This document shows positions 296 to 55,453 of a DNA stretch of 64,000 nt, piece by piece. A program made the translations under genes and the position numbers. Source of the stretch: Trachythela sp. YZ-2020 (lineage: Eukaryota; Cnidaria; Anthozoa; Malacalcyonacea; Clavulariidae); assembly GCA_016169945.1 (NCBI GenBank), contig JADLSH010000379.1:834001-898000 (forward strand). The letters run 5' to 3'. Every line of letters begins with the position of its first letter. Positions within the stretch are counted from its first letter, which is position 1. The notes under the pieces are model-generated. The model saw only the letters and a list, made by a program, of their open reading frames with translations, did not search any database and was not told where the DNA came from.

Positions 296-3200
296 CTAAA
301 ATGAGAAAATCAAAGAGAGGCTTTTATTAAGGTCTGATTCCACGAGTGTTTTTTCTCAGCGAAATGCGAAAAATTTCGCACGAAATGAATTGACGCATGC
401 GCAGAAAACATAAATCAGGCTTCGCGAGAAAAAATTTCGCTTCGCCAGTGAGTAGAAGTTAGTTCTACTCACTGCGAAAGCGAAAAAAGTGGGGAAATTG
501 AATAGAATCACTGATGTGCAGCCATCCGTATTCTGCAGACACAATTTCTCGCGAATAATTTCGCCGTGGAATGAGGCCTTTAGAACGCTGAAAATTAATA
601 TGGTTCAAGTGTTTACAAGTCTCCTCATGTAGTAACACTGGATCAATATGGGAAAAGGTTCTTACTAGACCTCTAGAGAACTATCAAGTTTAATAATGGT
701 AGCTTTTAGTCAATTCAATGAGAATAAGAGAGAAAAAAAGGAATGAAACCTGTGTACAGGGTGAATGGCACATGCACTAATATAACCACTGTGTCACAAT
801 CACACCGAAATGGACGTAGGATGAGTAATGTCCATGTATACGAAGAGGAATTGGACAAAATTAAGATGAAAAGATTAAATGAATCAAAATTGAGTGCAAA
901 ACATTTATTGAACCAAACTGCCACAGGTGATTAAAACAACTTACCTTAATCATATGTACATTTTCCTCGATAATCTGAAAGATACCTCTTCTATTTTCGC
1001 TCACATATTCACGGAAACATTTCTGTAGCTTCTTAGCCTCGCCAGCCAACACCACTCCGTACGCGGAGGAATAATCATAAATTTTGTTGATGCCAACTCC
1101 AATATTATTAAACAAATCTCTTCGACTACCAAGGACGTATGCGTCAACCAGAGCTCCCTTAACATAGCCTTTGGTTAGAGCGTTGTAAATGTCGTACAGA
1201 TTATTGTAGGCATGTTCTAAAACAAAATATATAAATAGATTTACTGTATTTAGTCATGTACAATACTGATACTTTACATTGGTTTACCTCAAAACCTTCA
1301 CTACCGTTCGGTTTTACCCTAAGTGCAATCATCAGTTCACCTAGCTAAGTGAGATCGTCAGATCTTCAGATACGAAACATCTCTGCAAGGTCCATTGAAT
1401 GATGACAAAGTAATTGAAGTATACTTTTTATTCTATCTGATGTTTAACTAAGCAAATAAATGATGAGTTATACCTAAATCAGCATGAGCATTCTTCCTCA
1501 CTGCAAGTTGATGTTCAGATGAGTTTTGAATTACAGCAACCTAGAATAAAGTATAGTTAATGCTAAGCAGATTTGTCAAAATAGAGTTCAAAGTCTTCAT
1601 ATTAGAAACATATTATCACGTTTTATAGTAACTTATGAAGCGTTGGTGGCACAGTTGGACGGTCTGGATCAAAAGGATTGCCCTTACTCGATTTCAAAGC
1701 TGAACAATTTAGAACTAATAATAATAATAATAATATTTATTCAGGAAACTCCGCTCACCAAGGTGTTTTTCAGGAAGGTCCTGCAATATATATCCATATT
1801 ACATAATTATATGAAACTACTCTATGATTATATTAGATACAAATATAGTTAAAGATTTTATATACATAATTAAATTTGTAAAAAGATTAACTCAATCAGA
1901 TAAAATGTTTTAGTTTGATTTTAAACAGTTGAAAACTAGTGGATTGTTTTAGTTCAATAGAGCTATTTATTGTAGTAAACTTAGATTAGTTCAGTTTAAG
2001 CTGGTCAAACTTTGATCCAGTAATCTTACCTTTGTGCCATACAGTTTCAATTTATCTACGACAACTTCGGTTGTGATATGTGACGTCAAAATAGAAGTGT
2101 ACAGCGACATTATAATGGAACCAGTTAATATCCAGAATATACCGATGATCCGGCCTGCAACACTGCGAGGAAATTTGTCACCGTACCTGTAAAAATTTCA
2201 GAATATACAATAGTTTAAATTTAAATACACTAGACGGCAACTACAACTATCCAGTATAAATATAGTTTGTTGAGTTCAGATTTACTGGATGGCTCTTACT
2301 GGACTTCAAGGGATAACAGCTTAGAACGCATAGAACTATGTAGTATAAATAGATGTTGATTTGGTTTAGCTAGGTTTCCTCCAGTAATAGCAATGGCCTG
2401 ACAAGAGACAACCATTACTGGACCTCTTGGAAAAACAGTTTAGAACTTATAGATCTCTCTCGTATAAATATAGTTTAGTTTAAGTTTCCTTCTGTAGTAA
2501 CAGTTTAGAACAGATAGAGCAATCTGGTATATATATAGATAGTTGAGTTTAGGTTTCCACCTAGCTCCAGTAACACTTGACCAATATAAAGGGATTACTC
2601 TTACTGGACCTCTAGGAAGGACAGTTTGGACTGGAACTACAGTTAGATTAGTTACCGGTTCAAAATAATAGACCCACACACCACTTGATGAACACCAGGA
2701 AAAAAAAGAAAAAAGATTGACTATTATTGGTGAAACTTTCCACACACCAAGTAACGATACCAATCACCGAAGTGAATACAACAATAACAACAACAATGGG
2801 TAACGTATCTACAATCGTATCCAATAACATTATAGATGCAGTGTTGGTATCATCTTCGAGTACGAGAAACGCCACGCCCGGAGATTCGACCAGGGGTATA
2901 AACTCGTAGCGCTTGTAGTATTTCACTTGATGGACCTGACCGTACATTGGGAAATGTAGCTCGGCTGTGTCACCTACATGGTCCCGGAATTCCGAGACCC
3001 CTGACTTGAGAAAGCTCGAGGCGTCCCGCGCGTGCTCCTCGAAATGCGTGATCGTCCAATTGTGTTCGTGACAAAACCCGCAACACGTGGAGACCATGCG
3101 CGGTAAGATTGCTGGAAAAATTCCCGAGATCTTGCTGTTGTTTTTGTAAATATACGGAGGGTTGATCCACCAGTTTGTTCTGTAAGCTGATGCACACTTG

Positions 3201-15200: not shown

Positions 15201-18200
15201 ATGAGGTGAAAGCTCGGCCTCTATACTGTGGATTCGCTCAGGTGTGTTGCCATAAAACATTAGAGAAATCCTGCCTTCTTTGTATAGCGTGTTTACAGTT
15301 ATTCCACGACTTTTTCGACTCCAGCCAAGTTGCAACAAAACTCCGTCGTTCAAAACTTTCTTTAAATTTACCCAAAATGTTATAGTAAAGCCATTTTCAC
15401 ATCGTGTAGGATCGGGAAGACACGTTTTACTGAAATCTCCAAGAATCATGTGCGATTTTGAATGTTTCGAAGTTTGTAGTAATTCTAGAGCGTTGTCTTT
15501 TGGTCCTGGAAACAGTTTGTAATTTCCAATAATTTTTGAATGTCGATCTCCTTTCAAATCTAAAACGATATTTTTAACGGCTGCGTCGAAGTCCCAATAG
15601 TTGTCCGCGTCGTGAAACCATGGTAAATGAGCGTCTAAATAAAATAAAATAAAATAAGGTATGATGGAGTCTACCAAACAGTGCAAAGGTTAGCGCTGTT
15701 GTAGGAAATTGAATGCTGAACGATGCGGAAAAATGAAGACCTCCTGCGAAGGACGGCGATGCGAATGTTGAGTTTCGCTGAAGGACAAGATATCGACGAG
15801 GAATGAAGAGGTCAGAAGATGTGGGGTGGTAGACATTGCAGAGAAGGCGAGGGAAGGAAGGAAGACTGAGATGGTAAAGGAGAGCCAATCAGAAACATAT
15901 TATGGAATGAAGATATCAGGAGAAGATGTGGAGTTGTAAAAATTGCAGAGAAGGTGAAGGAAGCGAGAATAACATGGTACGGATACGTAACAAGGAGATG
16001 AAGAAAAGCCGATCAGAAACATTATGGAATGAAGAGATAGAAAGATGTAAAGTAGTAGACATTGCGGAGATCGATGAGAGGAGCAAGGCTGATATGGTAT
16101 GGGCACGTAACCCTTGATGAAGGAGAGCTCGTCAGAGACATTATGGAATGAAGAGATTAGAAGAAGATGTGAGGTAGTAGACAGTGCAGAGAAGATGAGG
16201 GAAGCAAGGCTGAGATGGTATGGACACGTAATAAGAAGAGATGAAGGAGAGCTCGTCAGACACATTATGGAATGAAGAGATCAGAAGAAGATGTGGAGTG
16301 GTAGACATTGCAGAGAAGATGAGGAAAACAAGGCTGAGATGGTATGGACACGTAATAAGATGAGATGAAGGAGAGCCATACAGAGGCATTATGGAATGAA
16401 GAGATTAGAAGAAGATGTGGAGTGGTAGACATTGCAGAGAAGATGAGGGAAGCAAGGCCGAGATGGTATGGACACGTAATAAGAAGAGATGAAGGAGAGC
16501 TCGTCAGAGACATTATGGAATGAAGAGATTAGAAGAAGATGTGGGGTGGTAAACATTGCAGAGAAGATGAGGGAAGCAAGACTGAGATGGTATGGACACG
16601 TAATAAGAAGAGATGAAGGAGAGCCATACAGAGGCATTATGGAATGAAGAGATTAGAAGAAGATGTTGGGTGGTAGACATTGCAGAGAAGATGAGGGAAG
16701 GAAGTCTGAGATGGTATGGACACGTAATAAGAAGAGATGAAGGGAATCCGGTCAGAGTCATTATGGAATGAAGAGATAGGAAAAAGATGTGAGGTGGTAA
16801 ACATTGCAGAGAAGATGAGAGAAGCAAGGCTGAGATACTATGGACACATAAGAAGAAGAGATGAAGGAAAGCCAGTCAAAGCCATTATGGAATAATAAGA
16901 TTAGAAGAAGTGAGGTGGTATATATTGTAGAGAAGATGAAGGAAGCAAGACTAAGATGGTATTGACACGTAATGAGAAGAGATGAAGAAGTGACATAAAA
17001 ATGAAGAAAATATTACACGGAGATAACTATTTAAGTCTCAGGTGCGGTCGCGGAAAGGGTCCGTTTGTATGGTCCTGTTCCTCCGCCACGAGATGGGAAA
17101 CGCGATGATTTTTTATGTTCAAATGATTCAGGGAAATTGTATAATATAGTGTTAAATATCTATTAGAAACTGCAAATGGAACTGCATATGAGTGCTTTGT
17201 TGCTGTTTTCTGCGGTGTATAAATAATAACTCGTGGTTGGTTTTAATGATTTTAAATGAGTCTATTTAAACACCACAAGCTAGTATTAAAAATTTCATTC
17301 ATGCAAGTATTATAGGTTATTTTTAGTCGTTTATATATCGATATAGCGATTTATCTGTGTTTATGTTGATTTCGTTGCTAAAATCCACCCCATGCTACGT
17401 TATAAATAATAACTTCGCTTCTCCTCAAAATATTTCCGTCGTGTTCATCCAATTAGATATCAATTTCAATACTTATAAAAAATTCAGTCGTTCATTGTTT
17501 CATTTTAATGAGAGGAAACATGATAAGACGAATAACATGATATTAATAAAAATGTAATGCATTTTTTATGTAACTTACTATAGATATAATTTTAAAGGCT
17601 GTTTACATGATCATGCTATGCTGGTTCGGAGTGCAAAGCGGGACGATTTCATGCATAAAAAAGAAACAAACAAAATTGATTTCACTTTTTTCATTTGAAC
17701 AACAAAATCTATTATTGAAATCTATAGTGCTTAGAATAACAAGCTAGACTTTAAACACAGACTCTCCTTCTAAAATCTCCTAGAAATTTTAGTGTTTGTC
17801 CATTTTCTGTTCCTTCGCAGTCTCTCCGTATCTATATATGTTTAGGTAGTTCAGACACAAACCACGGCAACTTATTGTAAATATTACTCTATACATGAGT
17901 TGACTGGTTTGACGTAGTAACTAAGGCCTCAGACAGACAAATACATTTCGGATCAGAATATCAATTTGTCTTTGAGGACAGGAAAAGTGCCGAGTTCGTC
18001 TGCCCGACGCGTTCGCCGGAGTACTATTAACACTCGATCCTCACGTTTGCAATAGTAGCGGCTACAAATCTCTTGATGAAGTGCCGTCGCTTGAAACTTT
18101 CTTAGATTTTAAATGTTTTTCACGTAATTCAGTCACAAACCACAGCAGATTATTGTTGAATATCATGCCACTGGAGCCCCACGTTTGAGATATCATAATG

Positions 18201-38508: not shown

Positions 38509-38602
38509 ATGATTTTTTATGTTTGGCCTTGGCTTAGACGTTTAAACAACACTTTACTTGCCACTGTTTTTACTCTTGTAATTTATTCAAACAGTTATTT
38601 CA
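38509..38602 (+). CDS. Gene B exon 1: signal peptide
   Basis: The exon encodes MIFYVWPWLRRLNNTLL followed by the hydrophobic core ATVFTLVIYSNSYF. It leaves in phase 1 at a GTAAGT donor, exactly the phase needed by the LamG exon. The start has A at -3. No other upstream ATG gives this frame with a hydrophobic segment. Confidence 0.75.
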
Positions 38603-41600
38603 GTAAGTAAAAAAAGAGTAGAACTTAGTAAGTGTGGATGTGCTAATCATCCTTACTTGCAGCTGAGAGCTGAGCTGAATTACGAAGGACGCAGCTCGAC
38701 TTGATCGAGTCGAAGGCTTATTAAAGGCGCCTCATGGCTGCCACCGTATGACTCATGTCTGATCAGGGAGCACAGCTGCGATGCAAGGGTTAGTTTGGGG
38801 TTTATCCAAACCCACCCTATCAGCATTCCCTGTGGGAGGAAACTGGTAATTGTTGCAATTATGTAATTTTGAAGTAAAAATAATAATTTTGAAGACTTCG
38901 TACTTTCATCCGACGATCAAGAATATTTTTGCCATTCTTTGCAAAATATATTGCATGAATACTTTATTAAATACTGGAAAGAACAGATTCAACAAGGTGG
39001 AAGAATGGTAAATTAAGACTTTTTAAAAAAGTGAAAATACATTTTGGCTTTGAGAATTATCTCTCTTCAATTCACAATTAATTCTCTTCAATTAAATACA
39101 AAGTTTTCTGTTGAGTGATGGCCCTTACTGGACCTCTAGCGAAAACAGCTTAGATAATCCAGTATAAATTACGTTAGATTAGTTTAGTTTTGGTGAGAAC
39201 CTGAACTGGATTAATAATTCGTTCATTTGTAATTGTACCTTACCTTCTTGTCGTAGGATTCTGCAGAATCAATCCCACAGGTAACGGAATCAGGTACGCG
39301 AATCTAAATGAAGAAAAAGAAGTAGTTGTTAAACTTAGTAGTTGGTCATTTAGGCAGAATTATATACTAAGGCACATTGACGGATTAACCCAGGACTCAG
39401 CTGATCAATAGATTTAATTTTCTTTCTTATATCAGAGTCAACATTTCTGAAGTTGACCACCATTTGCTGTCCCCTAACGCTCATGGAATAATTGAAGTAT
39501 GCGATCCTCAATACATTAGCGCTGTAATGAAGGGATTTGTTAAAGAACGGGGCAATTCTATACAGTGCTAACCTATTGGGGATCGTATCCTTAAATTGAT
39601 CCCCAGCACCAAGGCACAAATAGACACTAGATTTTAATGCTTTGACTCTATTTCCACATTGTAGATCCTTACTACATCAACACAAAATACTTCTGGTCTT
39701 TTGACGGACTCCAACACAGTAAAAACCTCACACTACAATATGTCTGGGGCATGCTAGATGAAGGCATCAAACTATCTAGTCACACTAATAGTTCAGTTCC
39801 ATGGCTAGACCTCGGGCCGATCGATTCTTCGTGCATTCCAAAACCTTTTGAATGCAAGGATGGGTTCACTATATTATTTTGGATGCGAACAGATGGAACA
39901 CAAACAAATACAGTCCTCTTAAATGCTGCAGAAGAAAAAGCTGCTAGAGGGTTTAACTTAAAAATAGACAATGGAATACTTCGTGTTTCTACAACTGGAT
40001 TTGAATGGGACGACCTTTTCCCAAGGACTGTTCAAATGTTTTTAGATACAAATTGGAATTTTAAGACATGGACTCATGTTGGTTTGCAGTGGAATGCGGC
40101 AGTTAAAGAGTTAAAGATATATTATAATTGTTCAGAAGCTGATTACATTTCGACTGGTGTTTCGTTTGACCGCACTGCGCATGCGTTTGGACCGCCGCAG
40201 CGATTGATCGTGGGCGCAGATAACGAACTGGCCAATAGCGGTGAGGTTGAGATCGATGAGCTAGGGATCTGGGACGGAATACTATTGAGAGAGGAGATTT
40301 GTCACGTGTTTCACGCAAGACGTGGTAAGATGATAGAAGAATAACATTTCTTTGTATATGTAAAACGCGCAAATTGCCACAAGTTAACAGCAGACAGACA
40401 TGTTATAAGTTGTCTTAAAAAGTTGATACCAGGTTGGATTCGCACTGCTTGTTTCCAGCTTGCTGAAAGGTTGTTACAATCCTGCAGCAAACTTGTTACA
40501 AGATTGTTTCAACAAGCTGATATCAGGTTGACTTCAATGAACAGCAATGTTACAAGTTGTTCCAAACTTCTTATCAGCCATGTTCATTGTTAGAGCTTTG
40601 TTCTATTAACGACTTTTATAAATCTAACCTAATGTTTCGCCTTTTCTCATTTTAGTTCATGGTAAATACAGCCCGTGGTCAGAATTCACCCCTTGCTCAA
40701 AAACTTGTGGTCCGGGACTTCATTCGCGGTCCAGGACTTGCACAGACCCCAAACCAGCGAACGGAGGACGAAACTGTGGTCACCAAGGACCAACAACGGA
40801 AATTACGTCATGCATTGATCGAGAATGCCCAATAAATGGCGGCTATTCCCAGTGGAGTGAATTCAGCGATTGCAGTCAGACCTGCGGAGGGGGATATACA
40901 ACTCGTATACGAACATGTACCCAGCCTGAGCCGAAATACGGCGGGAAAAATTGTTCGGGTCTAGGGCCGGCCAGGGAAATTCGGGTCTGCAACCTGAATC
41001 CGTGCCCAGTCCATGGAAATTACTCGGCCTGGGGGAATTTTAGTGCTTGCACTAAAAGTTGTGAAAACGGCACAAAATATAGAAATCGAACATGTGATCA
41101 ACCTAGACCTCTACACGGTGGTCGGAATTGCTCAAAATGGGGACCTTCTTTCGAAATTGTGAGGTGTAATGAATTCCCATGTCCAATTCATGGGGGTTAT
41201 TCGCCTTGGTCGAACTTCTCAGAATGTACCAAGTCATGCGAAGGGGGCAAGAAAACCAGAGTGCGAACTTGCACTGAACCAAGCCCGCAACACGGCGGGA
41301 GAGATTGCAACCATTTTGGCGCAAGTAATGAAACGAGAAGATGTAACATACATTTTTGTCCAATTCACGGAAGTTATTCTCAGTGGAGCGAGTTTAGGTC
41401 TTGTACAAAAAGTTGCGGGAATGGAACCCGGGCAAGGAATCGAATCTGTGATAGTCCAACCCCACAACACGGGGGGAAGAATTGCTCAGTGCTTGGTCCC
41501 GCCACGGAGGTTGAGAGTTGTAATGCATTTCCATGCCCCATTCACGGCGGATATACTCAGTGGTCGAACTTTTCCGAGTGCACTGTATCCTGTGGTGGTG

Positions 41601-44600
41601 GGCATCAGACACGGGTGCGTTCTTGTACTAACCCCACTCCACAATACGGGGGGAGGGACTGCCTCCACTTAGGGGCAAACAATGAAACCAGACCATGTAA
41701 CACCCATTATTGCCCAATACATGGAGCATACTCAGACTGGACCGATTTCACAACATGCGCTAAAAGCTGCGCTAATGGAACTCAATCAAGAAATCGGAGT
41801 TGCACCAATCCAAAACCAATGTATGGTGGCTTAAATTGTTCAAGATTAGGGCCAGATTACGAGGTACGGACCTGTAATGATTTTCCGTGTCCAATACACG
41901 GAGCCTGGGGCAAATGGACTTCGTATTCGGCCTGTACTCGCACATGCGCTGGAGGTCGACGTTTTCGGATTAGAGAATGCGATAATCCGAAGCCCAAATA
42001 CGGAGGAAAGAGTTGCGAGGGCATTTCGGGTGAATCAAGGTTGCATTGGGACATATGTGGTACCAGACCATGCCCTGTCGATGGAGGGTACTCGATTTGG
42101 GGAAATTTGAGTATTTGCACCAAAACTTGTGGGAACGGGACGAAATATCGAAATAGGAATTGCTCCAACCCAAAGCCGGCTCACGGTGGACGAGATTGCG
42201 AGAGACTAGGGCCAAGCTTCGAGGAGGTCTTCTGTAACACACATCCGTGCCCAGTCCACGGGAACTACACGGCCTGGTCTGAGTTCACAGCTTGCTCAAC
42301 GACTTGTAATAATGGTACTCAAACACGGCGTCGTAATTGCAGCAATCCAAGGCCAATGCATAACGGACACAATTGCAGTCATTTAGGTCCACACAGCGAG
42401 ACACGGTCTTGTTTTTTGCGAGAATGCCCAATCGATGGCGGCTATGGGCCTTGGACAAGGTTTTCGGAGTGTAGCACAACTTGTGGCGAGGATGGTTATC
42501 AAATACGAACACGGCAATGTGACAGTCCGACCCCTAGATTCGGCGGACGTGCTTGCAACAGACTAGGAGCGGGGAAGCAAATACGGGCCTGTAATATTTT
42601 TCCATGTCCCATAGACGGAGGGTGGGGTGCGTGGTCGGAATTTTCAGGTTGTTCTAAAACTTGTGAGAGTGGAAGGCGGGTGAGGATTAGGGTATGTGAT
42701 AACCCACCTCCACAATACGGTGGGAGAGAGTGTACGGTCGTGTCTGGGGAGTCTGGTGTGCACTCCGAGGAATGCAATCCACAAAGATGTCCTGGTGGGT
42801 TTTGTTTAGAATATCTTTTAAATGAGATCTAGTGTTTCAAAAAGGAGTTTAGGTTTTTGGTCTAATAAGTTTATTTAACTCTATCAGTTCGTCCATACTG
42901 TACTATTAAATTGTCCAGCAATGGCACATTATGGCAGAATCGTCAGTGATCTAGCTATTATGTAATTTCTTATAGATATTCTTTTCACAATAACGATCAA
43001 GATCACCTCCGAGGAATGGAGAGATTCATTGCTAAATTTTAACAGTCTGGAGTACCAGAACCTCGAGAAGAAAATACTGAAAAATGTAAGAATCGCTTAA
43101 TATAAGTATTCTTTAGTTTAATAGTTTTTGCTTCGATTAATTCCTCTTTTCTTTTTATTCAAATTAAAACTTGTGATTGGTTTCTTAAGGTGAGAGATTT
43201 TTACGGTGACAATTCGCCTTTACACAGAATGAAAGTTTTAAAGCTATGGTAGGTGGTACGGTCACATACCTAAAATACGACTTGTCAAAAATAACTTGTA
43301 CCTTGCTCATTTTTTCTTTGACAATCTTTTCCAGGAAAGGAAGTGTGATTGCCCTCGTGGAACTACATTTCTTCAACATTATGTATTCTGGTGTAATGGA
43401 CGTACAAGATGAAATATTTCTACAAAATAGATTGGCAGAATTAGACGTCATTGGTATAAATATGAAAAGTGCTGATGGTGAGACGATTTGAGATTAATAT
43501 TATCAGAGAAAAATAAAACAAAACATAAAGAGTGGTATACGATCAACTGCAGCAAACGTGTCCTCATCTATATTATATATTTTTCTTATGCAGTTCCGTC
43601 AGACCCGCCTGACAACATAACAGCTTACAACACAAGCTCAAGGAGTATAATGGTTAGATGGAATGACATTCCAACATCTCAATCTAACGGCAATCTCACG
43701 AATTTTGTCGTGCTCTACACTAAAAACCATACAACAGACTACACTGAAACTATGTTGGATCCAAACGCTTATCATGTAGAGTTAAAGAATTTAGAGATAT
43801 TTAATCCATACAATATCAGAGTTGTGGCGCGCAATAGACGTGGAGAAGGCGTCGCGAGTTTGCCATTAGTTGTTTGGACTGAAATGGAAGGTAAAAATGC
43901 AAACTAGCTTTATATACCAGATAGCTGTATCAGTTCTAAACAGTTCTCCCTAGAGGTCCAGTAAAGGTCATCCCTTCTTGATCCAGTGTTACTACAGAAG
44001 AAAACCTAAGCTGAACGAACTATATTTGTACTGGATAGCTCTATCAGTTCTAAACTGTTCTCCTTAGAGGTCCAGTAAATAAAGGCCATTCTTAATTGGT
44101 CCAGTGATACCACGGGGGGAAACCTACACTACACCACACAACACCACATCAAACTACACCACACCACACCACACCACACCACACCACACCACACCACACA
44201 ACTAAACTACACCACTTTATTTATACTGGACTAGCTCTATCAGCTCTAAACTGTTCTCTCTTGAGGTTTAGTACGAACCATGCCTTAAATGTTGGACCAA
44301 TGTTACTACAAGAGGAAACCTAAATTAAACTAACTCTATTTATACTGGATAGTTCTATCAGTTCTAAACTGTTCTTCCTAGAGGTTCAGTAAGTGTCATC
44401 CCTTATTGATCCAGTGTTACTACAGAAGAAAACCTAAGCTGAACGAACTATATCTATACTAGATAGCTCTATCAGCTCTAAACTGTTCTCCCTAGAGGTC
44501 CAGTAAATAAGGGCCATTCTTAATTGGTCAAGTGATACCACGGGAGGAAACCCCAATGTTACTACTAAATTAAACTAACTCTATTTATACTGGATAGCTC

Positions 44601-47600
44601 TATCAGTTCGAGACTTTTCCCCTAGAGGTCCATGGCCATCCCTTGTTGGTCAAAGGGTGTGTTATTACAGGAGGAAACCTGAACTAAACTAACTTTATTT
44701 ATACTGGACAGCTCTATCAGTTCTAAACTGTTCTCCCTAGAGGTCCAGTAATTGCATGTCCTGGAAGTACTTCTTTTCACATGTAACTGTTGCAAAATTG
44801 AAATCAGAACGAACACTCTGAATAAAGGATGAGACCTAACGGAATGAGGATCAATTACGAGTTCCCATCTACTGATTAATTTACTGATTGCTTTTCTTCA
44901 TTTTAGCTCCGAATGCAGCGCCACAGATTCAATCTGCCCACAACTTGAGTTCCACAAGTGTCTATCTGCAATGGTCCGCTATTCCTAAGGAAGATCTTCT
45001 CGGAATACTACAAGGATATGAAGTGAAATATCGTTTGAAGAAAACAGGTACAAACTTCGTGAAGTACAGTTACGGCGTGCTAATCATTGCAGCTGAGTGC
45101 GGAATTGCAAGGGACGCTACTTCAACTTCATTGTGTCGAAGGCTTACAAGGGCACCTCTGCCACCATAAGACCCATGTCTGATCACGGAGCATAGCTAAG
45201 GTGGAAGGGTTAAGTCTTTGATGAGGGAGGAAAACTGGAGTTCCCCTGAAAAACCCTCTCCATATTGCAGAGTTTGCGATCTTTATAGACCTATCTTATT
45301 TGTGTGTATTGAATGTTTAGATGAGTGGATGTCAATCACGTTAAACACAAGTACTCGAGACATTGTCTTACGAGATATGAAGAAGTTTTCAACATACGAA
45401 GTGACAGTGGCAGGATTTAACAGGATTGGAAGAGGACCAGCGAGTCATGTTTATATCACAACAGACGAGGACGGTGAGTACATTTAAGTATATTAAGAAA
45501 GGGAAGGGGAATTGCGAGTCGAAAGCTTGCTAGGGCGCCTCTGGCTGTCGCCATACAGTCCATGTCTGATCACTAACGATATTTAAGGTGGAAGGGTTAA
45601 TTTTTGGTGAGGAAAACCAGAGTACTTAGCAGAAAACCCCCGAAGCATAGGAGAGAACTAACCGCAACTCTACAAATATGAGCTTCAAGCACATCAACTC
45701 AGAGCAGCGTAGTCACTCATCAGTGTAATAACCCATCAGGGTAGTCACACATCAGTGTAGTCACCCATCAAGCAACAATACTCTACCTTCAACCTTCAGT
45801 AACAAGCTTAACTTGAAAAGGGGCAGCGCGCTAAGCTCAACAAAGATCTGGCTAATACGTTTGATGACTTCAATTCGATCCATCCTACCAAAACTACATC
45901 ATAGATAGAAGTACGTAGTATGAAAATAAAGTTAAAACATTGTATCTTCACATTTTTAGTCCCAAGTCAATATCCGCCTAACATCAAAGTAGTGAACACT
46001 AGCTCAACAAGCCTTAAAATATCATGGAAAGCAATTTCACCTCAACACATCCACGGGATTCTACAAGGATATGGAATATTCTATAGAGCTGACCATGTTC
46101 ACATATGGAGCAACATCACTGTACTACCGGATATATATAGTTTGGAGTTAACTGGACTGCCAAAGTATCAGAAATATTACATCCAGGTGGCTGGATTGAC
46201 CGTTAAAGGAATCGGGAAACCTTGTAAACAGATCCCAGTCATGACAGACGAAGATGGTAAGGCAAGATTACAGATTCTGTTTTTTCTTGCAGGTCATTAT
46301 ATCTATCTTCATCTTTCACTCAAATCTAGTCCCAGATTGACCGAGAGTTGGCTGCTCAAATTATTGACTTCCATCTTTTTCTGTCCCTTGTCATGTCCAC
46401 CGTCAGTTCCTTGATATTTAGATCTTCCTTTACCCAGTCCATCCATCTCTTCTTCGGTCCCCCTTTTCCTCTGTCTTATTTATCTCCAGCTCCATGTCTC
46501 TGACCAGCTCTCCTTCATCTCTTCTTATTACGTGTCCATACCATCTCAGCCATACTTTCCTCACCTTCTCGGCAATATCTACCACCTCACATCTTCTTAT
46601 CTCTTCATTCCATAATATCTGTGATCGGCTCTCCTTCATCTCTTCTTATTACATATCCATACCATCCCAGCATTGCTTCTCTCACCTTCCCTGCAATGTC
46701 TATCACCTCATATCTTCTTTTTATCCCTTCATTCCTCATCTTGCCCTTCAGCGAAAGCCCCAAGGATCAATCTCGTAACTCTGTCTTTCTCATCAGATAT
46801 TTTTTCTGCACATTGATGCAGTAATCTTCTAAAGGAACATCGTAACTGCTCCCTGTCAAAATTTTACCGCTCTTTCCTGGCGGTAGCTAATGATATTTGT
46901 TTTAAACTCTCCTCTTTCATATTTCAGTACCAAGTGTACCACCCCCAGGAGTCCTGGCAGTGAACACCAGCTCAACTTCGCTTCTCATCGAATGGGATCC
47001 ACTCCCCCAAGCACAAATACACGGCATCCTCCGCGGCTACATTGTCTACTATAAGCGACGGGCCTACAAAAATAGACCATGGATCCCACGTCACGCCACG
47101 CCGACAACCAGGGCAGTAGAAATTATAGGATTAAGGAAATTTACCAAGTATAACATCAGAGTTGCTGGATTTACGTCCAAAGGAATCGGAAATAAGAGTA
47201 AATTGATTTTTGTACCCACAGCTGAAGACAGTAAGTGAGATTTTCCAATAAGATTCGTTCTATACCAAGATATATTTGGTGAATGAATGAATGCACTTTA
47301 TTTAAACACGCTAGCCTCTCACAACTATCCGAAGTGTTGATTTTCAGGAGGGACGTATGAGTACTAACTATATACAAAATGAAAAAAAGGAGAGTTTTCA
47401 CAATAAAGATTAAAAAAGATGACTTATAAATATAGTATTGAAAGTATTAGACATGCAAAGTGGCGATTGTCTCTTGGGGGAGACCGTTCCATAGCATTGC
47501 ACCACTATGCTTAAAGCTTCGTTTCAAAAAATTAGTATGATGCCTTGGAAGCGTTAGATCAGTATCAATGTAAACTATTTACAATCAGGCTCAATCTTTT

Positions 47601-50600
47601 GAATAGATCACTCCATATGTCAAGTAAACTAAACTAAGTTTACTTTATATTGGATAGCTGGATCAATTCTAAACTGTTCTTTTTAGAGGTCAAATAAAAA
47701 CCATCTTCTATTTGTCCTGTATTATTACAGGAGGAAACCGGAGTACCCAACGAAAACTTGCGGTGTTTGGTAGTCAAACTGGAAGCACTCTTCTGGCAAG
47801 CAACTGAGATGAAATAATAATGAGACAATTGCATGTTGCAGGAATGGACAAACGACTGTCCAATGCTACGTACAATGAACTCAATGCATTGCATTCACTT
47901 TTATTTCAGTTCCAAGCCGTTCGGTGAATTCCGTGGCTGCCAATACATTAAGCTCTACCAGTATAAAGGTAAAATGGGGTCCAATACCTCACGAACAGGT
48001 TCACGGTATCTTACGCGGTTACAAGATCGTATTTCGGACGATAGATAATGACGGAGACTACGTGGTCAAGGAAACTATACCGTCCACCGACGAGATGGTT
48101 TTGGAAAATTTGTTGAAATTTACGAAGTACGGCATCAGGGTTCTCGGTTATACCAGTATTGGAAAAGGGAAGGCAAGCAATGAAATAAACTGTACGACAT
48201 TTGAAGACCGTAAGTAATAGTTAAATAAAATTTGTGGACCATATGAAAACTTGTCAGACGAGCAGTTTTATTTGCTCGTCTGTATGCTCAACAGGCTTTA
48301 GATATGACATACACTTGTCCAAACAATGCTCTGGATGAACGAACTTCTCCTTATACGGGCATCTCTCTAATATACGGACAGTTTTCTATGTCTCGACATC
48401 GTGTACTTTCTTTAAAAAATAACCTCTATAATTCCTCTATATTCCTCATTCTCATATGATCTTACAGTACCCTCACGACCACCACTACACATCAAAGTTC
48501 ATTCTCGCTGGAGCTCAACAGAAATCCCCATTACCTGGCAACCAATCACGCCATCATACTACGTCCACGGCATACTCCTTGGATATCGTATCAAATACAA
48601 GCCCGTGAGGGATACACTGAAGCCTATCAATGCGACATTCAAGTGGAAGGAAATAGGTAATGATAACGATGAGTTATTTAATGTCAATAACATAGGGTAA
48701 GGTTGCCCAAGGTTGTCTACTAACTTCCAGACGAAGGGCCTGGCGCTCGAAACGTCGAAGTTCTTGTTGTATTTTTCGGGTAGATTAATCTTAAAGACCG
48801 CAAGCTTATTGTATAGACGTTACCTACACTGGCACCACACATTCGAGATACTGCCCAATTCACCCGAGCCAGAGGCATGATACACGTTCTCGACAACTAA
48901 GGACAAAGCCTAAAGGCTCTTTTCCACTCGTCGCAAAAACTAACTCGCAAGCTCGCTGCGAGTACTTTCATCCAATCACAATGCTCGACATTTTGATTGG
49001 ATAAAAGTACTCACAGCGAGCTTGCGAGTTGGTTTTTGCGATGAGTGGAAAAGAGCCTTTAGGATTCGTTTTTGGTGAGGGAGAAAAACCGGAGAAACCA
49101 TCGAACATCTATGTAATACCCTACCCCTCACCATTATAGCGCCAAGTGGCAGTGCGCTAACCGTATCTACAACTATCTGTGTTCCCCTAGGTTCTGACAA
49201 GCTGGAATATTTGATCCAAGGACTGCAGCCGTTTACTACTTATGTCATTCAAGTGCTGGCGTACACTTCCATAGGGAATGGCGTAGAGAGTGAAAAGGGT
49301 TATGCAGGTATGTGTATGGGGGGGGGGGGAGTCTGTAGAGCGCGATGAGCTCTATATAAAACTGCAGTAATAACCAAACTATGTCGGTCTCCTCCTGGAG
49401 TATAAGATGGTCTTCACCAGATCTCTAGAAGTCTGAGTAGTTTCGGCAAAACTGATAGCAGTATCCGGAATAAATAAGTTAGTTTTAATGTGGTTTAGTT
49501 CATCTTTGAAAGCGAAGAACTTAAGACTTTACCAAAGTTGAGAGAAGATAATTAAGATTTGGCTGTCGTGAGACCTCGCATGAATAGTCAAGAAGTAATA
49601 GAACTATCCAGTAGAAATACAATAGGTTTGGACCTACAAGCGATGAGTCGGATGACCCTAACTGGAACTCTATAGAAAATAGTTTAATGTACCGAAATGA
49701 TAGGGCTATCCAGCCCAGTATAAACAAAGTTAGCTTAGTTTAGATTTCCGCTGTAGTAACACTGGAACAACAAGGGACAGCTCTTACTGGACCTCTAGAT
49801 TAGGGAGAACAGTTTAGAACTGATAGAGCTAACCAGTATAAATAAACCTTATTTAAATATTTTGGTTATTTTTCAGAAACCTGTAGCTGCCAACGAGTAT
49901 TTACAACTAACTGGTGGCAACTGACACCGTACACAACGGTGGAAAACAACATTGCTGTTGGTATTTTCCCAGATATCCTAAAAAACGCTGTAGAATTCTG
50001 TTGCAGCGATTGCGTCCATGGCGATATCGCGAGCATAGACTTCGTAGGAAGCAACAAAACGAAATCATTACAGCGAGGAATCATTGAAGTCAAAGATAAC
50101 CTTGGAGAGGACATTGATTTTCACTTTCCAATATTTGGCACGAAGTTTAAGACGACTTACGGCAATGGCTTTCCATATGTTCCCCTGGTTCATTCGCCCG
50201 GGGCGGCATTTCTTGTCAGTTCGCATAATGCGTTTAACGAATCGGAGAGAATCATGAAGACTTTTCTGAGTTCATGGACATTTGTCGTCGTATTGGTTTT
50301 GGCGTCATATATGGTTGGTCTGATCATGTGGTTCATTGTAAGTTCATGTATATAATAGTTCGCATATATAAGATGTCCAGGAGATTATTCTGTGGCAGTC
50401 CTACTGCTGTGGAGTTTCTACAAAGCCAATGATTTAAGGAGATAGAAAATTGACCCGTAACATTGTTCTCACGAAGGGTCCCAGATTAATAGGCCGCAAA
50501 AGCACAGAGGCACATTTCAATTGGGTAGCAGATTCTTGGTTTTAAGGTACAAATGTGAACATCATTTCCTGCATTTTGAGGCATGTTTACGCCAGACGTA

Positions 50601-53600
50601 CGTACTGAGATTCTGTCACACAAACACAACATCCAACCAGGGATGGATTTACTGGGGGTTGCGCACCCCTCCCAGCCTTTGCCAAGGGAGGTGCGGGAGG
50701 GCGGGGGGGGTGTGCAAATTTCCATATCAAATTTATCAAAAATATAATATTGGGCCATTGAGGGCCTCTTTGACCATCTAGGCAATCCTATTTTTCAAAA
50801 ATTTTCGGACAAGCTCAGCCCCTACACCCTGTCGGGGTCCTCAGTGATGATGCACGGCTACCTGGGTAGACAGTCACACCCTGCTTCATGACCAGCAACC
50901 GCTCAGCACCCCCCTACCAGATCAAGATGGATCCATCCATGCATGCAACATGCAACAAGTTTCTCCCTTTAAAGAATTTAAACTTTTCATAAGAACAGCT
51001 TTTCCTAAACAACTGCCACCTTTGTTGTTTTCATGTTGTTGTATATTCATGTGTTTTATGACAGGAACGTAGATACAACTCCAAGTATTTCCCAATGTCG
51101 TGTCTTTATGGACCCTGGGATGGTTTCTGGTGGAGTGTTGTAACAGTTACAACTGTCGGGTGAGGATATTTAACCATCCATTTCCATATGAATGAGAAAT
51201 TGACAAATTTAGTGAATTGTAACTGGTTGAGAGGAGGACACTTCGGTAGAGGACCGATTGTACTTAAGTCACGGTCTCTCTAAAATTGGTTGATAAGATG
51301 TTGATTAAGTATCTAGTTAGTAGTCAGGCAAGTTTGAACTTGGCGGAACAATGGTTCATATAGGCAACTTTCACTTATTCGACATACAATCCTGAACAAA
51401 ACATCTGATACACTACCAATTAATGGACTAATTTTCGTAATATTATCGCAAATTTGGAAAAGCCTCTCCCCGCTTAACCCCACCCCCTTTACCCCAACAA
51501 TTCAATGTTGATTATGATCTCAGAACACAGTTAAAGGAATTGTAGACGTCCAACATTGTTTTTTTTGGGGGGGAGAAGTTAATGAATAAATTGATGCACT
51601 TGTGTCGCACGAAAGGACAAAGAGAAAGTGGGTTCGATTCTTGCTGTATGGAATTTTCTTAGTCTCACTTTCATGTGAGAAGAATCCTTCAAGTTGACTC
51701 CCGGTTTCAATAGTAACAATGGACAATTAGGAATGCCCCTTACTACGCATCTGGGGAGAACAGTTTAGAACTAGATAAGGTTTTCCAGTTTAGTTCAGTA
51801 TTTAAGCTGCATGCTGCACCCTATTAACCAGTTTGCTTTGATTTAAACAGTAATTATTAATATTCATTATGGTTTTTCTCATAACTAGATATGGTGACAA
51901 AACCCCAAGAACTGTACTCGGGCGGTCTATATCCATTTTATGGATCATGTGCGGTCAGATTATGGTGGTGATGTTTGTAGCACACATCACAAGTGAAATA
52001 TCTGCTGGTATTATTGGAGAAGAAATCAGAATTTATGGGAAAAAGGTGATATACAGGATGAACTTTGATGCAGGGAAGAACGACTCCCTCACTCCCTCCC
52101 TCCCACCCTCCCTTCCGCCCTCCCTTCCTTCCTCCCTTCCTCCATTCCACCCTCCCTTCCGCCCTCCCTTCCTTCCTCCCTTCCTCCATTCCAACCTCCC
52201 TTCCGCCCTCCCTCCCTTCCTTCCGTGCATAACCATGCACCATTTACCATTTACCAATTGAAGGTTGTTCCTAATTTTAGATGGCAGTGATACAAAACTC
52301 CTCGGAATTCAGACTTGGTGTGAAAAAGAACGCAAGATATGACCCAGGTATTTTTTTTATTTTTTAGAAACTTAGCCATTAGGCAGGTTAACCCTACAGA
52401 GCTTATTGCTCCATTTACAGGGTTCCTAAAATTTTAAACTTCCATCTATAGCAACAACAAAAACAAAATAGCAACAAACAAAAACAAAATAGCAACAACA
52501 GCAACAGCAACAACAGCAACAGCAACAGGAGCAGCAACAACAACAGCAACAGCAACAACAGCAACAGGAGCAGCAACAACAGCAACAGCAACAGGAGCAG
52601 CAACAGCAACAGCAACAGCAACAGGAGCAGCAACAGCAACAGCAACAACAGCAACAGGAGCAGCAACAACTTTATACTAACAATAACACAACCTCTTTTC
52701 TACTTCCCTTCAGATGTGCAGTACACAAACTTGAAAGAAATTTATGATGATTTGGTAAACCATAAAGTTTTTGGTGCCCTTATTGATACCTATACGGTGT
52801 CTAGTGCAACAGATTTGTTCAATGACGCTAAACTTACTGTAAATGAAATATTTGATTATTCTCTCAACTATGGAGTGGTGTTGGGAGGTGAAGGACGCAA
52901 GTTACAGCCCTGTCTTGAGCATTATATCACACAAGAAACCGAGGAAATACATCATTCTGTTGTCCGACATGTCAAACCGTTGAAGGTACTGCGTGTTAAG
53001 GGGCCACAGTAATTGGTTTTAACTGTTGTGGCGTCCCCGCCATTTGTTATTAGTGTTTAATTTTAGTGTGTTGTATAGTGTTTTTTGGTTGTTTTTTTGT
53101 GTGTTTGTAACTCTGATGTAAATGTATCACCTGGCAAAGTTAAATAATAAAAATAATAAAATAATAGTATGCTATCATTTTCTTTTCTCGATTTCTCGAT
53201 TTAAGACGTGCTTCGTTGTTGTAATTATTATTTATACTAATAGCCAGAGCAGTTACAGATAATCATGTTGCAACAATTATTGGTACTAACTCGACACTAG
53301 TCAATCGAGCAGCTACATAAAATCATGTTGTGACATTTAATGACACTAATTAGAAGATAAATTATACATAATCATTTGGTAACAATTACACTAATTAAAG
53401 GTTAACAAATCATCCAGTTAATGACACTAATTAGAATGTCAGGTATTAATAATAATCATTCTATCATAGCAATCAACGATATCAATTGACGGATCAATTC
53501 AACTTAACAATAAATGTTAATTAAAATGTCAAATATATAAAATGTTGCGCAAATTAATGATGCAGAATAACGGATAAGCTATATATATAATGCTCTTGTA

Positions 53601-55453
53601 ACAATCAGTGATAGCAACAAGCGAGTAAGTTATTATCACTAACAACAAAGCTTAACATTATTCATTAATTAGGATGTTCTAACAAGAAATGTCAGAGTGG
53701 ATAAAACACGGAGCCTGTTCGACGCAACTTCGAAGACATATCAACAAATTGTTATAATTACTGCTGCCATGTTTGCTTTTCTCTTTCTTCTTGGAGTTAT
53801 TGCACCGTATATTTTAAAACTTATGCCTCATTTTAGAATGCCAATCGGTAAGTAATTTGGAGTTCTAGTCCTCCACTGCTCTCTGTATTAGAGATCCCAG
53901 GAATCGATTATAAACCTACTGGACTCGTTTCGTATCTGTATGGATGATTTTGTATCTCATCAGCCATGAAAAACAACACAGTTGTCATTCTAAGATGCGT
54001 GATATAGTTTGTAAAACCATTCGTCCACCATTAAAGCTTAACATGCATTCAGCATACAGTATGGTACAGCTGTTTCGCATGAATCATTAGAGAACTTAAG
54101 CATGTAGGACGGCAACGCGACGACTATTAATACAATGAGTCGATGAAAAGAAATGAATTATTAAAATCCCACGGGAGTTTTAGACGTGGTCCTCGCTCTG
54201 TTTACAACGTCAAATCACAGATTTTCACACCTTGTACACAACGCCTGCAATTCAAGCCGCAACAAGTGCTACTTCAAATTGATTCAGTAGAACTCTTCTC
54301 AACCATAAAGCCCATGTCTTCAATTTCTTAAATTGTATTTAATTCATACGATTGATAATACAAGACAAGTTTTCTTTACTATAATTTATTTGAAGGAGTT
54401 TGTTGTGGCCGTCCTCTGCATAAATGCAGTAATTAATACAAGTCAAAACAATGGCGACTGGATGGCATGGAGAACAGTGAGATTTTCAAAACTATGAAAA
54501 GACAATTTAACATTCTGATCACTGAATCGTGACTGAATGGCACTATTGTTGTGTTAAGTGTCATGCAAAGACCATTAATTTATTTTAGTCGCATGTGAGA
54601 AGAGTGCTTTCAGTTTCAATCCACGAAACACCACATATTTCTCCGGCTACTTCGGTTTTCTCCTGTTGTAACACTGTGTCACTGTGGCAAAAAGAGATGG
54701 TCCTTACCGGACCTCTATGGAAATTACTAATTAGTCATATCATCAGTTCGAATAAAAATGGTTCAACTGACCACGGAGAAACGAGTTTGTACTGTTTTAC
54801 ATTGTACCCAAGACTCAAAGTACAGCACATAATTCATATGTTGGACGAAACAAAAAGCTTTTAAATAACTTCGGTACGCATAAAAGTCAATTCAATTCTG
54901 TTTTACGCACCCGTGGGTTGAGCATAGTGCTAAGGCATTCAAATTCCAACAATAGCTTGATTTCTAAAGGCCTCGTTTTTTTTATACACCCTGCATCGGC
55001 TGCATGTATAAAGCTACCAGTGTGAAAGTTAATTTTGTTTCATAATTTTTATTCATCTTTTAACACTTCACAGACACCAGAGCGTTAGTAGCCCGTGCAA
55101 GAGATCGAGCATTTGAATCTTGGCAGGCAGCTGTAATGACGCGAATCACACCCGACAATACTCTCACACGACAAATGGAACGGAGCATTCAACGGACAAA
55201 ACGAAGACATTTAAAAGAAATAAAATCTTACATAAAAGAACGCCAGAAAGCCGAGAAACGGATCGAAAGAGATTTGAGAAGGGAACGAGCGAGAAAGCAA
55301 CGGGAGGAAGCGAGGAGAAAACGAGAGGAGACCGATGAGAATTTGAGCGATGGAAATTTGTCGAGCACGAGTTCTGAAGGATCGGTTAAGAAAGAGAGGA
55401 AATATATTTGGGGGGGAATTGAGCCGCTTGAAGGGATATTTTCACTTGTGTGA
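38509..55453 (+). CDS. Gene B: LamG-TSP1x12-SEA-FN3x6-ionotropic receptor with TVGYGD K+ filter, 2,202 aa
   Basis: Exons: 38509-38602, 39665-40324, 40656-42794, 42976-43085, 43190-43248, 43335-43477, 43594-43890, 44907-45047, 45321-45473, 45960-46256, 46928-47230, 47910-48209, 48468-48656, 49191-49307, 49877-50337, 51065-51159, 51889-52045, 52281-52347, 52714-52985, 53673-53847 and 55074-55453. All 21 have GT/AG borders and compatible phases, totalling 6,609 bp in one frame. Domains: signal/anchor 1-31, LamG to about 251, twelve TSP1 to 964, SEA to 1068, six FN3 to 1667, S1 to about 1790, M1 about 1797-1820, pore with filter 1851-1856, M2 about 1864-1887, S2 to 2018, M4 about 2044-2065, cytoplasmic tail to 2202. 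The channel order S1-M1-P-M2-S2-M4 is that of ionotropic glutamate receptors, and TVGYGD is the potassium filter. The likely role is a surface receptor coupling extracellular binding to K+ flux. The ligand and subunit number are unknown. Confidence 0.92.
39665..40324 (+). CDS. Gene B exon 2: LamG-like domain
   Basis: This 660-bp phase 1-1 exon carries motifs YFWSFDG, GFTILFWMRTDG, WTHVGLQWNAAVKELKIYYN, RLIVGADN and IDELGIWDG. It ends in FHARRG, equivalent to INQERG in gene A. It is a jelly-roll (LamG_3/pentraxin-like) domain, probably for extracellular binding. Confidence 0.85.
40656..42794 (+). CDS. Gene B exon 3: array of 12 thrombospondin type 1 repeats
   Basis: One uninterrupted 2,139-bp exon with 12 repeats of about 59 residues: GKYSPWSEF, GGYSQWSEF, GNYSAWGNF, GGYSPWSNF, GSYSQWSEF, GGYTQWSNF, GAYSDWTDF, GAWGKWTSY, GGYSIWGNL, GNYTAWSEF, GGYGPWTRF and GGWGAWSEF. 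Each has six cysteines and a C-x-x-x-C-G/N-x-G core with R-x-R-x-C. All repeats differ from one another, in contrast to the homogenised array of gene A. Repeats 8 and 12 are variants (ISGE, VSGE in place of LGP). Confidence 0.95.
42976..43477 (+). CDS. Gene B exons 4-6: SEA domain
   Basis: Exons of 110, 59 and 143 bp. Sequence: FTITIKITSEEWRDSL, then LEKKILKNVRDFYGDNS, then LWKGSVIALVELHFFN and VMDVQDEIFLQNRL. The GSVI turn between two strands is the autoproteolysis-type site of SEA modules. Phases run 1-0, 0-2, 2-1. This SEA domain separates the TSP1 arm from the membrane-proximal FN3 stalk. Confidence 0.88.
43594..49307 (+). CDS. Gene B exons 7-14: six fibronectin type III domains
   Basis: FN3-1 43594-43890; FN3-2 44907-45047 plus 45321-45473; FN3-3 45960-46256; FN3-4 46928-47230; FN3-5 47910-48209; FN3-6 48468-48656 plus 49191-49307. 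All outer borders are phase 1. Conserved positions include W (MVRWNDIP, LQWSAIP, ISWKAIS, IEWDPLP, VKWGPIP, ITWQPIT), GY in the C strand and the KY-x-I-x-VAG-x-T-x-K-G block. FN3-2 and FN3-6 each contain an internal phase-1 intron that gene A lacks. Both introns hold repeat DNA. Confidence 0.92.
43905..44760 (-). repeat. SINE tail amplified in tandem, about seven units
   Basis: Units of roughly 120-135 bp, each with GGATAGCTCTATCAGTTCTA, AACTGTTCTCC, TAGAGGTCCAGTAA, TCCAGTGTTACTAC and AGGAAACC, in minus orientation inside a gene B intron. An (ACCAC)n microsatellite (about 44145-44205) interrupts the array. Confidence 0.85.
45048..45320. repeat. Intron within FN3-2 made of a dispersed repeat
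   Basis: This 273-bp intron carries GAAGGCTTACAAGGGCACCTC, CCATGTCTGATCA, GGTGGAAGGGTTAA and GGAAAACTGGAG. The same series occurs at 45490-45650 and 38640-38860, so most of the intron is one copy of a dispersed repeat. Confidence 0.7.
46430..46745 (-). repeat. Retrotransposon-derived minisatellite, minus orientation
   Basis: Two to three units reading RLRWYGHVIRRDEG on the minus strand, in the intron before FN3-4 of gene B. Same family as 15780-17000. Confidence 0.75.
47281..47600 (-). mobile_element. 3' end of a CR1/L2-like LINE
   Basis: On the minus strand, YIDTDLTLPRHHTNFLKRS and GAMLWNGLPQETI match the C-terminus of LINE reverse-transcriptase proteins (the LWN-S/G-LP block). A 3' untranslated stretch ends in a short (ATTC)n tail at about 47281. 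It is 5'-truncated, as is usual for LINEs. Confidence 0.75.
48909..49063. mobile_element. 155-bp near-perfect foldback MITE inside the FN3-6 intron
   Basis: CCTAAAGGCTCTTTTCCACT on the left and AGTGGAAAAGAGCCTTTAGG on the right extend as an inverted repeat for about 65 bp per arm with few mismatches. It occupies part of the intron that splits FN3-6 of gene B. Confidence 0.85.
49560..49850 (+). repeat. SINE tail units (plus orientation)
   Basis: Two to three units (CTATCCAGTATAAATAAA, GTAGTAACACTGGAACAA, TTACTGGACCTCTAGA, GAACAGTTTAGAACTGATAG), ending about 30 bp before the S1 exon of gene B. Confidence 0.75.
49877..50337 (+). CDS. Gene B exon 15: S1 half of ligand-binding module and M1 helix
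   Basis: A 461-bp exon, phase 1 to 0. It starts ETCSCQRVFTTNWWQL and continues with VGIFPDILKNAVEFCC, an S1-like G-x-F-x-D-I/L-L block. It reaches FPYVPLVHSPGAAFLV just before the membrane, then the helix TFVVVLVLASYMVGLIMWFI. The arginine that binds the ligand carboxylate in classical glutamate receptors is not obvious, so glutamate binding should not be assumed. Confidence 0.85.
50635..50945 (+). repeat. Dispersed repeat (G/C-tract family), copy 2
   Basis: Parallel copy of 30235-30620 within the gene B intron between M1 and the pore. Shared blocks include AATATAATATTGGGCCATTG and CCTGCTTCATGACCA. Confidence 0.75.
51065..52045 (+). CDS. Gene B exons 16-17: pore helix, TVGYGD filter and M2 helix
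   Basis: Exon 16 (51065-51159, 95 bp) encodes ERRYNSKYFPMSCLYGP, then WDGFWWSVVTVTTVG, and stops within the second filter glycine codon. Exon 17 (51889-52045, 157 bp) completes it with YGDKTPRTVLGRSIS and the inner helix ILWIMCGQIMVVMFVAHITS. The joined filter TTVGYGD is preceded by FWW-S-V-V-T, which resembles voltage-gated K+ channel pore helices (WW-A-V-V-T-M-T-TVGYGD). The phase-2 intron inside the filter is conserved in gene A's exon 15. Confidence 0.92.
51396..51610. mobile_element. Tc1-like remnant (copy 2)
   Basis: TACAATCCTGAACAAAACATC with later CCAACATTGTTTTTT matches 9570-9800 at reduced identity. It lies in the intron that splits the K+ filter. Confidence 0.45.
51590..51835 (+). 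repeat. SINE with tRNA-like B box (plus orientation)
   Basis: GTGGGTTCGATTCTTGCTG is a B-box-like motif. It is followed by the SINE body (GTGAGAAGAATCCTT, AACAATGGACAATTAGG) and tail (GAGAACAGTTTAGAACTAGA). It lies just upstream of exon 17. Confidence 0.6.
52080..52225. repeat. Polypyrimidine (CCCTCCCTT)n microsatellite
   Basis: About 145 bp of strand-asymmetric C/T sequence directly downstream of the exon 17 donor (52045). It includes a duplicated segment of about 58 bp. Confidence 0.9.
52281..52985 (+). CDS. Gene B exons 18-19: S2 half of ligand-binding module
   Basis: Exon 18 (52281-52347) encodes MAVIQNSSEFRLGVKKNARY. Exon 19 (52714-52985) encodes LKEIYDDLVNHKVFGALIDT and later IFDYSLNYGVVLGGEGRKLQ, then PCLEHYI. 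The final block matches the YG-I/V-x5-G-S/E-x-L region that closes S2 in ionotropic receptors. Lengths (67 and 272 bp) equal those of gene A. If exon 19 is not spliced, the frame stops at 53012 and the product would lack M4. Confidence 0.82.
52449..52672. repeat. (CAA/CAG)n microsatellite
   Basis: About 220 bp of CAACAG, CAACAA and CAGGAG triplets ending about 40 bp before exon 19. It lies in an intron. The minus-strand poly-leucine frame it creates is not a gene. Confidence 0.95.
52990..53170 (+). repeat. Possible retroelement 3' end with (AATAAA)-like tail
   Basis: Sequence after the exon 19 donor (TGTTGTGGCGTCCCCGCCA ... TGTAAATGTATCACCTGG) ends in AAATAATAAAAATAATAAAA, as LINE or SINE insertions do. 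It could also serve as an alternative poly(A) region. Confidence 0.35.
53171..53672. other. Gene B intron, nothing recognised
   Basis: AT-rich with irregular AATGACACTAATTAGA-like motifs (about 53338-53640), a weak degenerate repeat. Confidence 0.5.
53673..53847 (+). CDS. Gene B exon 20: M4 helix
   Basis: A 175-bp exon, phase 0 to 1. It encodes DVLTRNVRVDKTRSLFDATS, then the helix IVIITAAMFAFLFLLGVIAP and YILKLMPHFRMPI. About 90 bp of its 3' part, with the donor, is duplicated at 60562-60652. Confidence 0.88.
55074..55453 (+). CDS. Gene B exon 21: cytoplasmic coiled-coil tail
   Basis: The final exon encodes 126 residues after the split codon. RALVARARDRAFESWQA is followed by an Arg/Lys/Glu-rich helix (KRRHLKEIKSYIKERQKAEK, RRERARKQREEARRKREE), predicted by eye to form a coiled coil. 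A Ser-rich acidic patch (ENLSDGNLSSTSSEGS) and a C-terminus GIEPLEGIFSLV follow. The last residues S-L-V are compatible with a class-I-like PDZ ligand only if position -2 is read as S; this is weak. The stop is at 55451-55453. Confidence 0.88.

Follow-up and report, generated by a model that had tools for sequence, protein, structure and literature searches.

Background

K+-selective bacterial glutamate receptors of the GluR0 type have two membrane helices, no M4 and small soluble domains. The usual textbook picture of glutamate-receptor-like channels in animals is that of a cation channel which assembles through an amino-terminal domain. In other proteins TSP1, LamG and FN3 serve in binding; LAR-type phosphatases and Sidekick, both FN3 adhesion receptors, are single-pass proteins without a channel, and adhesion G-protein-coupled receptors (GPCRs) combine a large modular arm and a self-cleaving module with a seven-helix effector. 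Here we describe a gene in a 64,000-nucleotide stretch of the genome of the anthozoan Trachythela sp. YZ-2020 (the whole stretch is called the window below) which is predicted to encode, in one protein, an adhesion arm and a core like that of ionotropic glutamate receptors (iGluRs) with the K+ filter TVGYGD. It shares a tandem FN3 arm with the LAR-type phosphatases and Sidekick and, by analogy only, a large modular arm and a possible self-cleaving module with adhesion GPCRs, but its effector is an ion-channel core and not seven helices. Canonical animal iGluRs (AKDF, NMDA, epsilon and lambda) have the same predicted fold of ligand-binding and transmembrane domains (LBD-TMD) with M4, but differ in carrying [YF]TANLAA in M3 (8 of 8 Lig_chan loci read in this genome) and, for three of these loci, in tree position.

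To our knowledge AvGluR1 of the rotifer Adineta vaga has no TSP1/FN3/LamG arm. Like the window protein it is animal, iGluR-like and has a K+ filter, and a passage of PMC12226733 says that it resembles bacterial iGluRs, but it is said to have the eukaryotic iGluR architecture (passage of PMC12332018); our comparison with it is by these descriptions. Anthozoan TSR proteins also bear tandem TSP1 repeats (passages of PMC5446238), most of them being said there to be without transmembrane domains; the words fibronectin, laminin, ion channel and FN3 are absent from that text, and "potassium channel" occurs in it twice, both times on ShK toxin domains. No description of an adhesion arm joined to a K+-filter receptor was found in the titles, beginnings of abstracts and passages searched (supplements apart; for two of the queries, the best 20 of 74 and of 142 papers), nor in the passages of PMC6307864, PMC9989356 and PMC13099474. 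A passage of PMC12549020 names "ion channels" among proteins with extracellular matrix domains.

A predicted adhesion arm and ionotropic core in one frame

The gene lies on the + strand, from an ATG at 38509 to a stop codon ending at 55453, and its 21 exons, joined across 20 GT-AG introns, give a frame of 2,219 amino acids with a single terminal stop and all intron phases compatible (Table 1). The exon ends were picked by hand with phase among the criteria, and so this agreement is not an independent proof of the model; independent support comes from proteins of other species, which match it co-linearly. The original prediction from this DNA had proposed one continuous 21-exon frame running from LamG, TSP1, SEA and FN3 into a receptor core, and its coordinates, frame and domain order were borne out by re-splicing and Pfam. 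Over cut-off in the window protein were TSP_1 (12 times), fn3 (six times), Laminin_G_3, SEA (30.7 bits against a cut-off of 26.4) and Ion_trans_2 (E 1.5e-13), with Ion_trans at 23.1 bits below its cut-off of 25. LamG, the TSP1 array and each FN3 unit have phase-1 introns on both sides, as is typical of extracellular modules spread by shuffling. Exon 1 is the least certain, its splice codon giving N where P0001 and P0003 (relatives introduced below) have D, and the signal peptide, called by eye, falls below the hydropathy level of 1.4.

In the core, S1 and M1 are encoded by one exon, and a phase-2 intron interrupts the filter codons (ACT GTC GG / A TAT GGT GAC). Hydropathy (19-residue windows, threshold >= 1.4) placed hydrophobic helices at about residues 1820, 1883 and 2061, with one further, marginal window falling in the SEA domain, and the order S1-M1-P-M3-S2-M4 holds in the alignment of 24 relatives and the window protein. 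The [YF]TANLAA gating motif, SYTANLAAF in its vertebrate form, was not found in M3 of any of these 25 proteins, and so the receptor was not classed as a canonical animal iGluR; the motif is present in M3 of all eight Lig_chan loci read in this genome. The periplasmic-binding-like fold which had been proposed for S1 and S2 was recovered in a relative, P0006, whose predicted model has a bilobed iGluR-like LBD-TMD with M4, matches AMPA/NMDA folds at about 597-996 and ends in a C-terminal tail forming a long helix. That the core is instead an ordinary voltage-gated K+ channel pore set on an adhesion protein, without a receptor module, is scarcely tenable: the PDB matches listed (60 of 476) are K+ channel pores, with a best E of 1.6e-14, but here S1 and S2 flank M1-P-M3 and M4 follows S2. 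Hydropathy showed no voltage-sensor S1-S4 helices (M1 alone precedes the pore loop, the marginal SEA window aside), and the P0006 fold match and the S2 profile match to GluR0-type proteins (below) also speak against it.

A conserved anthozoan family

Whether ectodomain and channel are one gene was tested through conservation in other species. Searched against proteins of 0.55-1.75 times its length, the window core had one match, Montipora capricornis P0001, and the P0001 core as query gave 25 matches, 24 of them family members, from Montipora, Stylophora, Nematostella, Acropora, Actinostola, Pocillopora, Oculina, Porites, Actinia and the octocoral Dendronephthya; the weakest of the 24 still matches the window core at E 8.7e-42. 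All 25 proteins have kept the filter, with cores 28-36% identical to that of the window, although the search method somewhat favours filter-bearing matches. Database names for the relatives are "uncharacterized" or, once, "protein sidekick-1" (P0016, NCBI). P0001-P0005 each have LamG, TSP1 (6, 6, 6, 9 and 18 repeats), the channel and exactly six FN3, so that six FN3 lie between TSP1 array and S1 in the window protein and in 5/5 relatives examined, and residues 236-2154 of the window protein align with P0005 over 1,945 columns at 40%. The architecture, which the original prediction had proposed to seek in other cnidarians, is not a one-off: stony corals and sea anemones have it too, and it belongs to an anthozoan-wide family in which the arms differ between members (TSP1, FN3, LamG, MAM, TLD, F5/8, EGF, SRCR). 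These sequences confirm a conserved anthozoan family of putative receptors with a K+ filter and an adhesion arm.

In the core tree the window protein, P0001-P0005, P0006 and P0014 form a branch of eight (support 98/87), though no TSP1 is listed for P0006 or P0014. Over S1-M1 one of the paralogues in this genome (C) shares 79% identity with Dendronephthya P0019, which points to an octocoral as the likely source. The LamG-TSP1-FN3-channel build would then be common to octocorals and hexacorals, and so old. A Nematostella study of 2016 (passages of PMC4877951) lists in an RNA-seq table an anthozoan-specific transcript, Nv1971, named "sidekick-2", with FN3, TLD, MAM, F5/8C and Ion_trans_2 domains; it is among the ten highest nematosome transcripts, and K+ channel terms are reported as over-represented in nematosomes. 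Its domains resemble those of the relatives P0017 and P0008; it is likely a member of the family already in print and, as an assembled transcript, supports the one-transcript fusion in a sister subfamily.

Two adjacent genes, for an ectodomain protein and a channel, could have been falsely joined in a model taken from genomic DNA, and an intron of 569 bases does separate the last FN3 exon from S1. This is very unlikely, as the same fusion with the junction motif [AG].TC.C between FN3 and S1 is found in 23/25 proteins (P0015 has an Ig-type module in its place and P0020 gave no match) and full-length co-linear relatives occur in stony corals and sea anemones. Neither refuting outcome named in the original prediction, two separate genes or a fold without a periplasmic-binding-like S1/S2, was seen in the co-linear relatives and the P0006 model, and the frame, the Pfam domains and the co-linear relatives together support one adhesion-type ectodomain joined to an ionotropic-receptor core with a K+ filter.

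Kinship with bacterial GluR0-type receptors

A family profile searched against proteins of about 220-715 amino acids gave 101 matches at E <= 0.001, the weaker ones being mostly K+ channels; they include cnidarian-like pieces and many proteins with SBP_bac_3, Lig_chan and Ion_trans_2, and those with names are bacterial. The label GluR0-type was given to the bacterial proteins from domain content. Over the whole core the family and bacterial profiles matched with probability 100 (E 7.9e-40), and S2 alone matched bacterial S2 with probability 96.8 (E 2.4e-10), while bacterial S1 was matched solely as part of the whole core; four of the five profile controls gave a probability of 0.3 or less, the fifth being weighed below. 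Both groups share the S1-M1-P(TVGYGD)-M3-S2 order, a homologous S2 and an M3 without [YF]TANLAA, but the window receptor differs in having M4, a charged tail and an adhesion arm of ~1,680 residues, and in lacking the ligand Arg.

In a tree of 50 cores (unrooted, drawn at midpoint) the anthozoan rows join small cnidarian rows (99/94), this group lies beside bacterial rows, and three canonical iGluRs of this genome stand on a long separate branch; rows P0082, P0028 and P0024 are long and of unsure placement. The jellyfish protein P0030 (Rhopilema esculentum, 466 amino acids), another of the family-profile matches, has a TVGYGD core without the adhesion arm and may be near the form from which the cnidarian proteins descend. 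P0082, derived from an MMETSP transcript (554 amino acids), also has a TVGYGD core, on a long branch adjoining the cnidarian family. The family may be an old vertical relic, or may have arisen by transfer or by return to a K+ filter.

Ligand pocket, gating and the points against

From iGluR knowledge carried over by alignment, we equate the conserved S2 Asp with the acidic residue that binds the amino group of the ligand, and the Arg with the residue that binds its carboxyl. This Arg is invariant in 15/15 aligned bacterial relatives and sporadic in the corresponding segment of family relatives; in the alignment, the window segment FP..SPG (FPIFGTKFKTTYGNGFPYVPLVHSPG) holds no Arg at the carboxyl-binding region. 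The Asp is invariant in 10 family rows of one alignment and in 19 family and bacterial rows of another. With the Arg missing and the Asp kept, glutamate is an unlikely ligand, and we prefer either another small molecule or gating through the arm, by mechanical force or proximity; an amine-type ligand or no small ligand seems more likely.

The protein is probably a single receptor in which the LamG-TSP1-SEA-FN3 arm and the TVGYGD iGluR-like core together provide a K+ conductance opened via the clamshell or the arm, and the mechanism is best read, as a prediction, as that of a K+ channel opened by contact or ligand. The receptor would be a tetramer, TSP1, LamG and FN3 may contact matrix, neighbouring cells or symbionts, and engagement of the clamshell or arm would open the pore, clamshell closure presumably pulling M3, with a hyperpolarising effect if the pore is K+ selective. 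The SEA domain carries GSVIA (at 43339) at the SEA-site position, a possible self-cleavage site, where the protein may cut off its distal arm and yet hold it non-covalently; motifs of the G[ST][VIL][VIL] type occur in the ectodomain of 14/25 proteins, 12 of them with GS.

It is quite possible, if not the account we favour, that the arm merely anchors or places the receptor and that a small soluble ligand gates the clamshell, making it a K+-selective inhibitory chemoreceptor. The S2 homology and an Asp common to the family and bacterial rows aligned, the clamshell in the P0006 model and the constancy of the core while arms vary all agree with this, but the carboxyl-binding Arg, invariant in the bacterial relatives, is missing from the window segment. 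Loss of that Arg, the strong divergence of S1 and the loss of the pore loop in a second copy in the window would suit a non-conducting adhesion receptor whose channel-like core is kept as a scaffold; this is unlikely, since a filter conserved at such low core identity would be unexpected in an unused pore, allowing for the search bias given above.

Several points weigh against a contact- or ligand-opened K+ channel. The gene model is a prediction from genomic letters, and K+ selectivity is predicted from the filter sequence. The profile check of the core which had been suggested for this gene came out divided: Ion_trans_2 passed its cut-off but Lig_chan, at 25.1 bits, did not reach 30.8 (it scores 37.6 bits in P0005). 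S1 alone had no significant match to the bacterial S1 profile (probability 0.5), and in one swapped control the family S2 reached probability 18.8 (E 0.0013) with the bacterial S1. The fold comes from P0006 and not from the spliced window protein, and the whole-chain predicted template modelling score of that model is 0.42. SEA is over cut-off in P0001 alone among P0001-P0005, being below it in P0005 and unlisted at E 0.001 in P0002-P0004. Without the Arg, the clamshell might be dead or have a structural role, and the second copy looks broken. Finally, Nv1971 is linked to the family by its domain names and not by sequence.

Second copy and neighbouring features

A second receptor copy with the same domain order lies head-to-head with the gene (62..15689, - strand). 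A change of frame falls between 13837 and 13658 in its TSP1 exon, and a TVG-bearing pore-loop exon was looked for between M1 and YGD but not found. This copy may be decaying, diverged or mis-assembled. A 180-bp tandem array within it (12818-14605, 9.9 copies, 91% match) is a recent TSP1-repeat expansion. Fifteen further loci with S2 pieces of the family (L011-L025) were found in the Trachythela genome (578 Mb, 396 contigs) on contigs C30, C41, C122, C183, C315, C357, C358 and C390, several of them on the contig of the window.

Between the two copies, at 28015-30072 (+), are open frames like the prolyl 4-hydroxylase alpha subunit N-terminal region and a TPR domain, and a 17-bp array of 41 copies at 31247-31944. 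Two simple arrays occupy 52087-52657, between the M3 and S2 exons of the receptor gene, a 114-bp tandem array (8.1 copies, 98% match) follows just past its stop codon at 55916-56842, and a CUB-domain open frame (E 2.8e-21) lies downstream at 59843-60619 (+).

Table 1. Positions in the window of the receptor gene exons and of the parts of the second copy (ORF, open reading frame)
Feature	Position	Strand	Evidence or remark
Exon 1, signal peptide by eye	38509..38602	+	donor gtaagt
Exon 2, LamG/concanavalin-like domain	39665..40324	+	Laminin_G_3 30.0 bits, cut-off 27.6
Exon 3, 12 TSP1 repeats in single exon	40656..42794	+	TSP_1 x12, E 3.4e-94
Exons 4-6, SEA domain	42976-43085, 43190-43248, 43335-43477	+	Pfam SEA
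Exons 7-14, six FN3 domains	43594..49307	+	Pfam fn3 x6, phase-1 bounded
FN3 units 1-3	43594-43890; 44907-45047+45321-45473; 45960-46256	+	
FN3 units 4-6	46928-47230; 47910-48209; 48468-48656+49140-49307	+	
Exon 15, S1 lobe from ETCSC, plus M1	49877..50337	+	78% identity to P0027, 154 residues
Exon 16, pore helix and first filter half (...VTVTTVG)	51065..51159	+	
Exon 17, second filter half (YGD) and M3	51889..52045	+	
Exon 18, S2 start (MAVIQNSSEFRLGVKKNARYDP)	52281..52347	+	
Exon 19, S2 lobe with conserved Asp (ALIDTY)	52714..52985	+	
Exon 20, M4	53673..53847	+	
Exon 21, charged C-terminal tail	55074..55453	+	
Second copy, LamG	ORF 15689-14748	-	
Second copy, 17 TSP1-like repeats, two frames	~14760-11500	-	
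Second copy, six FN3-like ORFs	9409-4323	-	read by eye
Second copy, S1-M1	3259-2663	-	
Second copy, YGD-M3	2197-1994	-	
Second copy, S2	1253-864	-	
Second copy, M4	295-62	-	

Possible implications for cnidarian recognition

Throughout this anthozoan family, modular adhesion arms are paired with a K+ filter known from a rotifer receptor and from bacterial GluR0, and the family adds a further animal lineage with the K+-filter form of a glutamate-receptor-like receptor. It is possible, though rather doubtful, that these proteins form an unrecognised anthozoan class of adhesion-gated K+ channels, with GluR0-like cores and swappable arms, and that a cell would be directly hyperpolarised when its receptors bind matrix, symbionts, or cells of kin or foreign origin; by analogy, such a class would be the ion-channel counterpart of the adhesion GPCRs. 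If K+ is conducted, contact or recognition would be turned into inhibition within one molecule, and cnidarian recognition (symbiont uptake, self/non-self discrimination and the immune-like nematosomes) would become testable by expressing a single gene.
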